Part shown: piece by piece, positions 8,975 to 39,432 of the stretch | Position numbering within the stretch: the first letter of the stretch is position 1 | Layout: every line of letters begins with the position of its first letter | Origin: Novosphingobium organovorum | GTDB lineage: Bacteria; Pseudomonadota; Alphaproteobacteria; Sphingomonadales; Sphingomonadaceae | Assembly (NCBI RefSeq): GCF_022832435.1 | Contig: NZ_JALHLF010000005.1 | Coordinates: 1-64,000 of the forward strand | DNA: 64,000 bases | Direction of reading: 5' to 3' | Made by a program: the position numbers and the translations under genes | Notes under the pieces: generated by a model | Told to the model about the DNA's origin: nothing | Seen by the model: the letters and a program-made list of their open reading frames with translations, nothing else | Databases searched by the model: none

Positions 8975-9054
8975 TCCGTGCAAGCCCGATCGTGCGGGGG
9001 CGGCGGGTTGCGGCGCCCTTCCACGATTGCGCGTGGGAAGGCGCATGCAGCCAC

Positions 9055-9082
9055 TTCACATTCTGAATGAAAACCCTATATG
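9055..9082 (+). promoter_or_regulatory. candidate sigma-70 promoter of ssrA
   Basis: TTCACA at 9055-9060 and TATATG at 9077-9082 are separated by 16 bp, directly upstream of the acceptor half of the tmRNA. Transcription would begin near 9089. Assigned by position and consensus only. Confidence 0.5.
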
Positions 9083-9088
9083 GGCACT

Positions 9089-9450
9089 TGTCGGCTTCGG
9101 CCGACTATGACGATAAAGTGTGTCGTGCAATAGGCGCAGCGGACCCGGGGGCGGTACCCGGCGGCTCCACCACCACCCGTCCTGTCCCCTCGGCTGAGGG
9201 GCGGGGCAACCCAGTTGTCGCTGGGGTGATGACGGGGCCGAACTAGGATCGACGTGTGTTGAAAAGCGGTGCTTTCGTCCGGGCTGAGTAACCCGTTAAA
9301 GGCTCAAAACTCACAAGTGCCAACGACAACGAAGCACTCGCTCTCGCCGCGTAATTCTAGGGGCTAACGCCCTGAAGTTACAAAGCTAAAGCGCGGTTGG
9401 ACCCACCGGGCAACAGAAGCGGATTCCAGGGGCCCGGGGTGAGCCTGTCA
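9089..9450 (+). ncRNA. ssrA: tmRNA, two-piece circularly permuted form
   Basis: Rescues stalled ribosomes and tags their products for proteolysis. The acceptor half comes first and ends CGGCTCC-ACCA (about 9160-9171), with CCA encoded and a T-arm-like hairpin CCGGG/CCCGG just before. After a processed loop, the coding half begins GGGGCCGAACTAGGATCGAC at 9234. GGGGCCG pairs with CGGCTCC and includes a G3-U70 pair, the alanyl-tRNA synthetase identity signal. The tag frame begins at GCC 9319 and encodes ANDNEALALAA, stopping at TAA 9352-9354. Permuted two-piece tmRNA is known in Alphaproteobacteria. The outer ends and processing sites are approximate. Confidence 0.95.
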
Positions 9451-35042: not shown

Positions 35043-35279
35043 ATGAAAGTCCGCGTCCACGTCAGCCTCAAGCCCGGTGTCCTCGATCCGCAGGGCCGTG
35101 CGATCCACCACTCGCTCGAAGGTCTGGGCTTTGCGGGCGTCAACGACGTGCGCGCCGGCCGCCTGTTCGAACTCGACGTCGAGGACAGCGTGAGCGACGA
35201 AGCGCTCAGCGACATGTGCGAGAAGCTGCTGGCGAACATGGTGATCGAGAATTACCGCATCGAGAAGGTCGCCTCCTGA
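35043..35279 (+). CDS. purS: phosphoribosylformylglycinamidine synthase subunit PurS
   Basis: 78-residue small subunit that bridges PurL and PurQ in the three-part FGAM synthase. The sequence [20 protein letters not shown], followed by [17 protein letters not shown], is diagnostic. The stop overlaps the purQ start (TGATG). purL is not in this window. Preceded by a 184-bp divergent region that contains a perfect palindrome GGCCTTGCAAGGCC. Confidence 0.94.
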
Positions 35280-35956
35280 TGGCTTTCCGGTCCGCCGTCA
35301 TCACGTTCCCGGGTTCCAACTGCGACCGCGACATGGCGGTGGCGCTGGAAAAGGTCTCGGGTCAGCCCTGCACGCGCGTCTGGCACGGCGACAGCGATCT
35401 GCCCGAGGGGCTGGATTTCATCGCGCTGCCGGGCGGGTTCTCTTATGGCGATTACCTGCGCTGCGGGGCGATCGCTTCACGCTCGCCGGTCATGCAGGCG
35501 GTGATCGCCGCGGCCGAGCGCGGCGTGCCGGTGCTCGGCGTGTGCAACGGCTTCCAGGTGCTGACCGAAAGCGGCCTGCTGCCCGGCGCGCTGCTGCGCA
35601 ACGCAACGATCCGCTTCGTGTGCCGCGACGTGACGCTTACCGTCGAGAACGCGACCTCGCTGTTCACCTCGGGATATGAGGCCGGGCAGGAGATCACGAT
35701 CCCTGTCGCGCATCACGATGGCAACTACTTCGCCGACGCGGCGACGCTCGATCGTCTCGAGGGTGAGGGCCAGGTGGCGTTCCGCTACAAGGAAGACATC
35801 AACGGTTCGGCGCGTTCGATCGCGGGCGTGCTCAACGCCAGGGGCAACGTGCTGGGCATGATGCCGCACCCCGAACGCGCGATCGAAGCCACCCATGGCG
35901 GCACCGACGGTCGTGCGCTGTTCGAAAGCGCGATCAAGGCGCTGGTCGGGGCCTGA
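35279..35956 (+). CDS. purQ: phosphoribosylformylglycinamidine synthase subunit PurQ
   Basis: 225-residue class I glutamine amidotransferase that supplies ammonia to PurL. The nucleophile is Cys89 in LGVCNGFQ; the remaining triad His and Glu lie in [10 protein letters not shown] near the C-terminus. The N-terminal [16 protein letters not shown] and [13 protein letters not shown] match PurQ closely. The start codon overlaps the purS stop by one base, so translation is coupled. Confidence 0.96.
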
Positions 35957-36083
35957 CAGCAGGACCCGACACGGGGACCTGATCCCGTCGTTGCCCATCG
36001 GCGCGTCACGCCGCTGGGCCGATACGGCTCTTCCGGTGATCTTTGGACGCCTCAGGCGAACGGGTCACCGGGATAACCTCTTG

Positions 36084-36188
36084 AAATCTCCGCACCTGTG
36101 CACAGCTTGGTAGCGCAGACGAAATGCGCTCGGGCCGGTGCCCTGACCTCGGCTTTGCCGAGCGCATCGCAGGCGGAGATTTTCCTCG
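36084..36188 (+). promoter_or_regulatory. structured leader sequestering the aldo/keto reductase ribosome-binding site
   Basis: AAATCTCCGC (36084-36093) is perfectly complementary to GCGGAGATTT (36173-36182), which contains the GGAGA ribosome-binding site of the gene starting at 36189. Inside it, ATGCGCTCGG (36124-36133) pairs with CCGAGCGCAT (36158-36167). Two alternative hairpins compete with that inner stem: AGCGCA/TGCGCT (36112-36130) and CTCGGC-TTT-GCCGAG (36148-36162). Mutually exclusive pairings around a hidden ribosome-binding site are characteristic of riboswitch-like control. I do not recognise the class; a ligand, sRNA or thermosensor role is inference. Confidence 0.65.
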
Positions 36189-37028
36189 ATGACCACCCAG
36201 CTTGAACTCGCCCCGACGGTGCAGTTGTCCGGCGGCGCGGCGATGCCGTGCCTCGGCCTTGGCACCTGGCCGCTCAAGGGGCAGGCCGCGGCCGATGCTG
36301 TCGCCAGCGCGATCGGCCTTGGCTATCGCCACATCGACACGGCCGAGAACTACCGCAACGAAGAGGCCGTGGGCGAGGGGGTACGTGCCTCGGGCCTGGC
36401 CCGCGAGGACCTTTGGCTGACGACCAAGTTCAACCGCGAGCATCACAGCGTCGCGGGCGTGCGCGAGGCGTGCGAAGCCAGCCTGAAGCGGCTGGGCACC
36501 GATTACATCGATCTTCTGCTGATCCATTGGCCCAACCCGGATCAGGACCGCTTCGTCGCGGCGTTCGAAGGGCTCGTCCAGCTGCGCGAAGCGGGGCTGG
36601 TGCGCGCGATCGGCACGTCCAATTTCAAGCCTGCCCATCTGGACAAGCTGTTCGCCGCGGGGCTCGTTCCCGAGGTCAACCAGATCCAGCTCGATCCCTA
36701 CCACCGCCGCGACGACAATCTGGCGCTCCACGCGCAAAAGGGCATCGTGACCGAGGCGTGGAGCCCGATCGGGCAGGGCAGCGCGCTGCTTGATGATCCG
36801 GTGATCGGCGAAATTGCCGCTGCGCACGGGCGCACGGCGGCGCAGGTCGTGCTGCGCTGGCACGTTCAGCAGGGGCAGGTGGCGATCCCCAAGTCGGCCA
36901 ATCCACAGCGTCAGGCGCAGAACCTGGCGGTGTTCGATTTCACGCTGAGCGATGCGCAGATGGTGCGGCTCGATGGTCTGGGGCGTCCCGACCCCGACAT
37001 GCTCGACGCGGATCGCTTCGGGCACTGA
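36189..37028 (+). CDS. aldo/keto reductase
   Basis: 279-residue NADPH-dependent carbonyl reductase. The catalytic tetrad is present: Asp50, Tyr55 (DTAENYRN), Lys80 (TTKF) and His113 (LLIHWPNP). The C-terminal cofactor region IPKSANPQRQAQNL is typical. The set of motifs resembles the 2,5-diketo-D-gluconate reductase / DkgA-B type. ATG 36189 lies 9 bp after GGAGA, which is buried in the structured leader. Physiological substrate unknown; toxic aldehydes such as methylglyoxal are common substrates in the family. Confidence 0.92.
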   Translation: MTTQLELAPTVQLSGGAAMPCLGLGTWPLKGQAAADAVASAIGLGYRHIDTAENYRNEEAVGEGVRASGLAREDLWLTTKFNREHHSVAGVREACEASLKRLGTDYIDLLLIHWPNPDQDRFVAAFEGLVQLREAGLVRAIGTSNFKPAHLDKLFAAGLVPEVNQIQLDPYHRRDDNLALHAQKGIVTEAWSPIGQGSALLDDPVIGEIAAAHGRTAAQVVLRWHVQQGQVAIPKSANPQRQAQNLAVFDFTLSDAQMVRLDGLGRPDPDMLDADRFGH

Positions 37029-37059
37029 GCCGAGTCCGGTTGCCCGGCTGGCGGTTGCG

Positions 37060-39432
37060 TCAGGCGACGCGCTGGCGGTCGAGGTAGTGGCGGCTCTTGA
37101 AGATTTCGCGGGCGTCCATCGCGCCCATCGGACGGCCGAAGAAATAGCCCTGGATCTTGCGGCAGCCCAGCTTGCGGATGATCTCGACCTCGCGGTCGGT
37201 TTCGGCCCCCTCGGCGGTGGTCGACATGTCGAGGCTTTCGGCCATGGCGACCACGGCGCGGATGATCGCGATGCTTTCCGCATTGCCCGAGGCCGCGCCC
37301 TGGACGAACGAGCGGTCGATCTTGATCGTCGAGAAGCGCAGCTTGCGCAGATAGCCGAGCGAGGAATAGCCGGTCCCGAAATCGTCGAGCGCGACCCCGC
37401 AGCCCAGCGACATGATCCGCTCGAGCACCTGGTTGGCCATCGTCCCGTCGCGCAGGAAGATGCTTTCGGTTACCTCGACCTCGAGCCGGTGTGGCGGCAA
37501 CCCGCTTTCGGCCAGCGCGCTGACGACGCTCGCGGCGAAGTTGTGATCGAGCAGCTGCTCGCCCGAGACGTTGACCGCGACGCGCACGTGCGAAGGCCAG
37601 TTCATCGCTTCGTGGCAGGCTTCGCGCAGCACCCATTCGCCGATCGGGACGATCAGGCGGGTATCCTCGGCCAGCGGGATGAACTTGGCCGGGCTGACGA
37701 AGCCGTGTTCGGCGCTGTTCCAGCGCACCAGCGCTTCGAAACTGACCACGCTTTCGGTATCGGCATCGACCACCGGCTGGAAGGCGACCGACAGTTCGCG
37801 TCGCTCGAGCGCGTGGCGCAGCGAAAATTCGAGCTTGCGGCGTTCTTCGGCGCTGGCGTGCAGCGCGGGCTCGTAGCGGTGGTGGGCGTTGCCCCCGCCA
37901 TCCTTGGCGCGGTAGAGCGCCAGGTCGGCGTTGCGCATCAGCGTTTCGACGTTGGCGCCGTCGTGCGGGCCGACCGCCGAGCCGATCGAGGCGCCGACGT
38001 AGAGCGTGTGGTGGTCAACCTCGTAGGGCTGGGCCAGCCGCTCGATCACCCGCACGGCCAGCGCCTCGACATAGCGCGCGTCGCTCGCATCGCGCACGAC
38101 GATGGCGAATTCGTCGCCGCCCAGGCGCGCGCAGATATCGTGCTCGCCCATCTGTTCGCGCAGGCGTTCGGACACACGCGCGAGCAGCTGGTCGCCGACA
38201 AGGTGGCCCAGCGTGTCGTTGACCGCCTTGAAGCGGTCGAGGTCGATCATCAGGAAGGCGCAGCGCGTGCGCCAGGTCTCGGCATAGTCGAGCGCATCAC
38301 CCAGTGCCTCGGTCAGCATCATCCGGTTGGGCAGGCCGGTCAGCGTGTCGTAACGGGCAAGATAGGCGATCTTGTCTGAACTCTCGCGCGCTTCGGTCTC
38401 GTCCGAGCCGACACCGCGGAAGCCGATGAAGGCGCCGTTCTCGTCGAGCTTGGGCGTGCCCGAAAGCTCCCACCAGCGCGTCTGGCCGCCGATCACCACC
38501 CGCACGAGGAGATTGGAAAAGCTTTCGCGCCGCTTGATCCGCTCGGCCAGTTCGCGCAGGCCCGCGTGAAAGTCACCGGTTTCCCAGCACGCGCCCGCGA
38601 TCAGTTCGATGAAGGGCTTGCCTTCCAGCTCGCCCGCCTCGCGGCCGAGCGCGTAGGCAAAGCGCGGCGAGACCGAGCGCACGCGGCGCGCGGTGTCGGT
38701 CTGCCACAACCAGTCGGCCTCGCCTTCCTCGTATTCGCGCAGCAGCATCGAGACGACCTCGTCCTTTTCCGAGATGCCCGCTTCGGCGATCTTGGCGTGG
38801 AGGAAACGTTGCGCGCACTTGGCCGCGCCCCAGATCACGATGCCCGCGAGGACAAGGCTGATCGCGGCCATGTCGTAAGCGTGGGCGAAGAGGAAGAACA
38901 GCGCGCTCGATCCGCCGACCAGCACCCCGAAGAACAGCGCGGCCATCGGCACGGCGGGCATCAGCACGGCGGAGGCGGTCATCAGGACGGCGAGAATGGC
39001 CCAGATGCGCATCTGCAGCGCCGGGTCGATAAACGGGCCGAAAAGCGGCAGCGGCATCGCCCAGGCGAGCGCGTTGACCGCGCAGCCGGTGAGCAGCCGG
39101 TCGACTTCGCGCCGGTTTATGCCGCGGCGGTCGACCCCGGCGAGATTGCGCGTGATGCGATAGCTGCGCCACAGCACCGTGCCGGTGACCAGAAACCAGC
39201 CCGCCAGGACGAACGGCTCGACATGGCCGAAACACAGCGCGAAAACGGCAAGCATCGCGATGATCTGCGTGACGCGGCGCACCGCCGAGGCCTGGGGCAG
39301 GGCCGAAAACTGCATCCCCCGAAGCCGCACCCAGTCGCCGTCGTCGGGGTCGGTCAGGCCCATGATGGCGAGCGAGGGCAACTGCGTTGGCAGCGCCTTG
39401 GACGATCTGGAGGGCTTCGCGTTCGTGTTCAC
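37060..39432 (-). CDS. membrane-bound PAS-GGDEF-EAL c-di-GMP protein
   Basis: 790 residues from GTG 39432. An N-terminal membrane region (about 55-205) has several hydrophobic helices. A PAS-like domain follows (about 240-346, DWLWQTDTARRVRSVSPRFA). GGDEF is intact at 438-442 (RLGGDEFAIVV) and EAL at about 566-568 (SFEALVRWN), with the DDFGTGYSSLGYL loop. Both domains keep catalytic residues, so the protein may make, degrade or switch c-di-GMP. The inhibitory RxxD site before GGDEF is absent (GEHD in that place). A longer N-terminus is possible. It stands alone, convergent with the aldo/keto reductase. Confidence 0.9.
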   Translation of the reverse strand: MNTNAKPSRSSKALPTQLPSLAIMGLTDPDDGDWVRLRGMQFSALPQASAVRRVTQIIAMLAVFALCFGHVEPFVLAGWFLVTGTVLWRSYRITRNLAGVDRRGINRREVDRLLTGCAVNALAWAMPLPLFGPFIDPALQMRIWAILAVLMTASAVLMPAVPMAALFFGVLVGGSSALFFLFAHAYDMAAISLVLAGIVIWGAAKCAQRFLHAKIAEAGISEKDEVVSMLLREYEEGEADWLWQTDTARRVRSVSPRFAYALGREAGELEGKPFIELIAGACWETGDFHAGLRELAERIKRRESFSNLLVRVVIGGQTRWWELSGTPKLDENGAFIGFRGVGSDETEARESSDKIAYLARYDTLTGLPNRMMLTEALGDALDYAETWRTRCAFLMIDLDRFKAVNDTLGHLVGDQLLARVSERLREQMGEHDICARLGGDEFAIVVRDASDARYVEALAVRVIERLAQPYEVDHHTLYVGASIGSAVGPHDGANVETLMRNADLALYRAKDGGGNAHHRYEPALHASAEERRKLEFSLRHALERRELSVAFQPVVDADTESVVSFEALVRWNSAEHGFVSPAKFIPLAEDTRLIVPIGEWVLREACHEAMNWPSHVRVAVNVSGEQLLDHNFAASVVSALAESGLPPHRLEVEVTESIFLRDGTMANQVLERIMSLGCGVALDDFGTGYSSLGYLRKLRFSTIKIDRSFVQGAASGNAESIAIIRAVVAMAESLDMSTTAEGAETDREVEIIRKLGCRKIQGYFFGRPMGAMDAREIFKSRHYLDRQRVA

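Follow-up and report, generated by a model that had tools for sequence, protein, structure and literature searches.

The aldo/keto reductase (AKR) gene of Novosphingobium organovorum that follows purQ is preceded by a leader predicted to bury its ribosome-binding site in a very stable fold. The preferred reading, held with a probability of roughly 45%, is that this fold is lineage-specific and damps AKR translation on RNA that reads through from purSQ. AKR occupies a site at which, in close relatives, purQ and a convergent gene are separated by no more than a short spacer, and would most likely be transcribed by read-through from purSQ. The spacer RNA is computed to fold very stably, with an outer stem of 10-11 bp covering the ribosome-binding site, and translation from the read-through transcript would be constitutively damped. 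If the masking is real, the locus would be a simple case of a gene in a foreign transcription unit that is kept quiet; as evidence for a new RNA switch it carries no weight.

Structure of the predicted leader

The features of the locus are given below by their positions in the window, i.e. the whole stretch of 64,000 nucleotides that was analysed.

35279-35956, forward strand: purQ, the upstream gene (FGAM synthase subunit); NCBIfam PRK03619, 6.3e-100, above cut-off
35957-37058, forward strand: AKR gene with leader; four close relatives (L088-L091) have nothing corresponding to it between purQ and the GGDEF/EAL gene; blastn gap
35993-36073, forward strand: two more GC-rich hairpins 5' of the leader fold (about 35993-36019 and 36031-36073); predicted fold of 35957-36200
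36083-36093, forward strand: 5' arm of the outer stem (anti-SD arm); sequence and predicted fold
36096-36105, forward strand: palindrome CTGTGCACAG; sequence
36096-36118, forward strand: first hairpin within the multiloop, CUGUGC/GCGCAG in the structure used for model R1; predicted fold
36112-36130, forward strand: alternative hairpin AGCGCA/TGCGCT, 6 bp, mutually exclusive with the inner stem; sequence
36124-36167, forward strand: inner stem, 36124-36133 with 36158-36167; sequence and predicted fold
36148-36162, forward strand: alternative hairpin CTCGGC/GCCGAG, 6 bp, mutually exclusive with the inner stem; sequence
36173-36183, forward strand: 3' arm of the outer stem, holding the GGAGA ribosome-binding site (36175-36179); sequence and predicted fold
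36189-37028, forward strand: AKR; Pfam PF00248, 1.4e-51; NCBIfam PRK11565, 255 bits against a cut-off of 425

The arms of the outer stem, AAATCTCCGC (36084-36093) and GCGGAGATTT (36173-36182), are exact reverse complements, and a G-U pair (36083/36183) lengthens the stem to ten perfect pairs and one G-U. Nine bases separate the GGAGA Shine-Dalgarno (SD) motif from the ATG at 36189. The inner stem is likewise exact, ATGCGCTCGG (36124-36133) being the reverse complement of CCGAGCGCAT (36158-36167). The palindrome occurs once in the window, with 0.06 copies expected. The initial annotation had read from the letters a perfect 10-bp pairing covering GGAGA, a nested perfect 10-bp stem, two hairpins incompatible with the latter and the palindrome, and each was found in its place, the hairpins being real ones of 6 bp.

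In the folding model the SD is paired with a probability of 0.9995 in the closed form, which beats the best SD-open ensemble by ~10 kcal/mol in a 131-nt and a 274-nt context alike. Pairing of the SD is 0.999 at 42 °C and 0.984 at 70 °C; the melting of the SD helix in the physiological range that marks an RNA thermometer was not seen in the computation up to 70 °C. The alternative hairpins appear in the best fold only when the RNA is a 5' fragment that ends at 36147 or 36162, when the SD is forced open or when the RNA starts at 36112; in a fragment that extends to 36170 they have given way to the inner stem. Since the best folds of the two shorter fragments and of the SD-open form contain these hairpins, folding may pass through them. 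The leader region gave no Rfam match at gathering level, and a scan of 35900-36260 with E up to 10 gave 0 matches and thus no known aptamer family.

The stable SD pairing expected of an SD-sequestering leader was obtained in computation only for RNA that starts upstream of 36083. Without the outer 5' arm, opening the SD would cost 1.2-1.6 kcal/mol in the model. An RNA that began after 36093 would need only 1.6 kcal/mol for this, so that everything depends on where the 5' end lies.

Genetic context and transcription of the AKR gene

The profile search places purS before purQ, and the naming of the downstream gene as an aldo/keto reductase holds, as judged by its match to PF00248 (1.4e-51). Its nearest curated family is DkgA, with a score under the cut-off of that family. 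In the four close relatives, the aligned end of purQ is separated from the aligned end of the convergent GGDEF/EAL gene by ~83-85 bases (blastn), and a terminator-like hairpin is readable in this short spacer. The terminator scan flags a site after purQ in three of the four, and a similar hairpin is readable in the fourth, which is unflagged. The presence of AKR here versus the short spacer in these relatives may reflect a gain here or a loss elsewhere. Within the genus, AKR homologues with an E of at most 1e-80 are encoded by 4 of 195 genomes, its own included, and purQ is present in 184 of the 195; a class-wide draw of 385 genomes added one further AKR homologue at E 1e-110. With 67.5% G+C and a GC3 of 0.843, the base composition of AKR resembles that of the neighbouring genes, and its arrival is therefore not visibly recent.

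In genome G157, an AKR homologue (65%) lies in the same conserved gene block (L182, 4501-5337), in a different place ~8 kb from purQ, in the opposite orientation and behind a different leader. Its position and orientation suggest local movement or repeated insertion. Elsewhere in the window, an alphaproteobacterial (permuted) tmRNA gene was observed at 9051-9427.

Simple consensus rules were used for the terminator and promoter scans. No terminator-like site was found in 35900-37120 (0.6 expected), and the strict sigma-70 scan gave no site in 35957-36188. A conserved T at -7 is missing from more than 80% of the sigma-70 promoters in Novosphingobium aromaticivorans, according to the excerpt of PMC8407463, and for this reason a relaxed scan of the spacer was also made; its best score, 6 of 11, was equalled or exceeded by 495 of 500 shuffles. 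Given that neither a terminator nor a clear promoter was found in the spacer, AKR would most likely be transcribed by read-through.

Rarity of the predicted fold

The minimum free energy of 36080-36200 is -50.2 kcal/mol (z -2.9), a value as low being obtained for 2 of 200 shuffles, and the fold of 35957-36200 has a z of -3.5, with 1 of 200 shuffles as low. A perfect stem of at least 10 bp over the SD arose in 26 of 20,000 dinucleotide shuffles, and one of at least 10 bp in the inner 79 nt in 18 of 4,000. At the former rate, and assuming ~4,000 genes, chance alone would by estimate produce such an outer stem a few times in a genome.

The own-genome background was a 681-kb sample, for which a simple gene caller gave 522 genes (77% coding). 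A perfect stem of at least 10 bp over the SD is found in this sample in two of the 338 genes with an SD-like motif, one of them AKR. By long-range SD pairing, AKR ranks first among the 518 gene starts of the sample; this pairing exceeds 0.9 in 29 of the 518, and strong predicted masking of the SD is therefore not rare in the genome. By plain folding energy of the stretch from -105 to +12, AKR is only 72nd of 338 in the sample, so that the computed overall stability of the leader is not exceptional. Two nested perfect stems of at least 10 bp occur at three places in the 681 kb, i.e. in the leader and at two places holding copies of one dispersed repeat. The predicted architecture of the leader is thus unusual, yet the outer stem alone amounts, by the same estimate, to a few chance occurrences in a genome of this size.

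A dispersed nested-palindrome element of ~80-90 bp was observed at L159 (11100-11180) and L129 (5398-5574) of the same genome. It gave 64 matches there, many of which are the two strands of one copy, and occupies ~40 places, whole or in part. It looks like a MITE or a REP-type repeat.

Search for related leaders

No convincing match to the leader was found in 60 relatives or in 396 other genomes of the family, two candidates being scored per genome in the latter search. In its own genome the leader has one match, with 12 of 53 and 2 of 75 candidates from the first look being scored; the several copies that a dispersed palindromic repeat of REP or MITE type would have were not among the scored candidates. 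At the DNA level, one weak match was obtained in the relatives (L002 of G003) and 18, besides the own genome, in the family genomes. The latter have 79-93% identity over 26 to ~57 bases; 6 align with the leader and 12 with the coding region of AKR, and for these 12 part of the alignments was examined. The 6 leader-part matches and L002 were rejected as homologous leaders and taken as chance, because all lie within long open frames, in differing frames and on differing strands. Among plasmids 46 records matched, and the 15 matches listed begin at about AKR codon 7 or beyond, none of these 15 reaching the leader; phages gave no match. A published description of such a leader was not found within the literature collection searched.

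For the comparison of leaders of AKR homologues, the best 80 of 147 relatives were used; a script located the start and the SD, and assigned the SD a nominal position if none was visible. L149, a 61% homologue from the class-wide draw, had no usable start and was left out of leader folding. A perfect stem of at least 9 bp over the SD was found in none of 83 homologues (the best 80 of 147 relatives and three of the same genus). The longest such stem is 8 bp among the best 80 of 147, of which 5 have long-range SD pairing above 0.9, near the background rate. The three same-genus homologues (L084-L086) have a longest stem of 5 bp and long-range SD pairing of at most 0.06.

The covariance model R1, built from the one sequence, matched 10 of 194 other genomes at E of at most 0.05 versus 9.7 expected. 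The six best matches lie inside open frames of at least 150 codons, one of them (L175) ending in AUG; none of these six, for four of which the alignment was examined, resembles a gene leader. Across the collections searched, the fold thus appears to be lineage-specific and confined to this one genome.

Several likenesses within the genome were also considered. The stretch CAGCTTGGTAGCGCA (36103-36117 of the window) is one base off the D-arm of the genome's own tRNA-Pro(GGG), and at no more than one mismatch it occurs in that genome only in these two places. A tRNA origin of the leader was rejected, since ARAGORN finds no tRNA at the locus; the D-arm likeness is left unexplained or a coincidence. 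An origin as a coding remnant was likewise rejected, one frame, with its stops masked, having no Pfam match and the other frames being judged by inspection only. Elsewhere in the genome, the leader of a TonB-dependent receptor gene (L126, 6959-7058, reverse strand) is similarly laid out: a stem whose 3' arm carries the SD surrounds two hairpins and is followed by TTTT and ATGACCACCCA. A leader class common to both genes was rejected, as 49 of 112 alignment columns are identical, with gaps, and the start codons are out of register; the receptor leader itself matches 1 of 119 genomes, its own.

Alternative explanations

The main rival is that the fold is a chance product of the GC-rich spacer without a regulatory role, AKR being translated well enough or from another start. 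This is a serious contender, not much less likely than a damping leader. The shuffle rate of 26 in 20,000 implies several such stems per genome, and a scan of many genes would meet one; this expectation counts against masking as well, as do the lack of conservation in the searched genomes and AKR homologues, the 29 of 518 gene starts with pairing above 0.9 and the energy rank of 72nd of 338. Less easily reconciled with chance are the nesting of two perfect 10-bp stems, which is rarer (18 of 4,000 for the inner one, and only copies of one repeat at the other two places in 681 kb), and the first rank of AKR among 518 for SD pairing. That rank, together with the exact arms, the SD pairing of 0.9995 and the z values of -2.9 and -3.5, argues for the masking that a damping leader requires.

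It is unlikely that transcription starts inside the leader, with ~36081-36118 serving as promoter and operator DNA, in which TTGAAA is followed by the palindrome CTGTGCACAG, and with the AKR mRNA lacking the 5' arm. TTGAAA at 36081-36086 has five of the six bases of the -35 consensus, the palindrome would lie in the promoter spacer and overlap the putative -10, and a start near 36115 would drop the 5' arm and leave an SD that opens for 1.2-1.6 kcal/mol; but the putative -10 (CAGCTT) is poor, the strict scan has no site here and shuffles do as well in the relaxed one. A still slimmer chance attaches to a true regulated switch, in which an sRNA, a protein or a metabolite would stabilise the alternative hairpins and so free the ribosome-binding site. 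The presence of these mutually exclusive hairpins in the best folds of the fragments ending at 36147 and 36162 and in the forced SD-open form would suit it, whereas the gap of ~10 kcal/mol, the lack of melting up to 70 °C, the absence of Rfam matches at E up to 10 and of homologues in the collections searched, and R1 matches at the expected number with the six best in long open frames, speak against it. Of the switch-like leader proposed in the initial annotation, the hidden ribosome-binding site therefore stands in the predicted fold, with the long-range pairing ranked first of 518, and the switching is not supported, given the energy gap; temperature control of translation is not supported by the model, which keeps the site 98% paired at 70 °C, and none of the findings backs a ligand, temperature or sRNA switch. 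Least probable is a start-site-gated translation of an inserted gene, in which 36081-36093 would be both promoter part and anti-SD arm, so that the purSQ read-through RNA would be silent and the internally started RNA translated.

Comparison with known systems

ROSE and fourU are RNA thermometers. The AKR leader resembles such elements in that the SD is masked by a stem, as in the excerpt of PMC2896394, but its stem remains paired in the model at up to 70 °C and has no Rfam match. In the transposase mRNA of ISPpu9 of Pseudomonas putida, weakening of the leader structure raised a reporter 26-fold, and an antisense sRNA was proposed to open the leader, according to the excerpt of PMC8450116. There, as here, a long leader is predicted to bury the ribosome-binding site; unlike the ISPpu9 gene described in that excerpt, AKR is no transposase and has no known sRNA.

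With riboswitches the AKR leader shares a structured leader with alternative pairings, but it has no known aptamer, found relatives or balance between states. IS10 and the phage T4 e gene have SD-sequestering leaders in the read-through RNAs of mobile or phage genes. Whereas an own promoter giving an unmasked transcript was not found for AKR, the likeness to these leaders would lie in a gene placed downstream of a foreign transcription unit, with its SD predicted to be masked in the putative read-through RNA.
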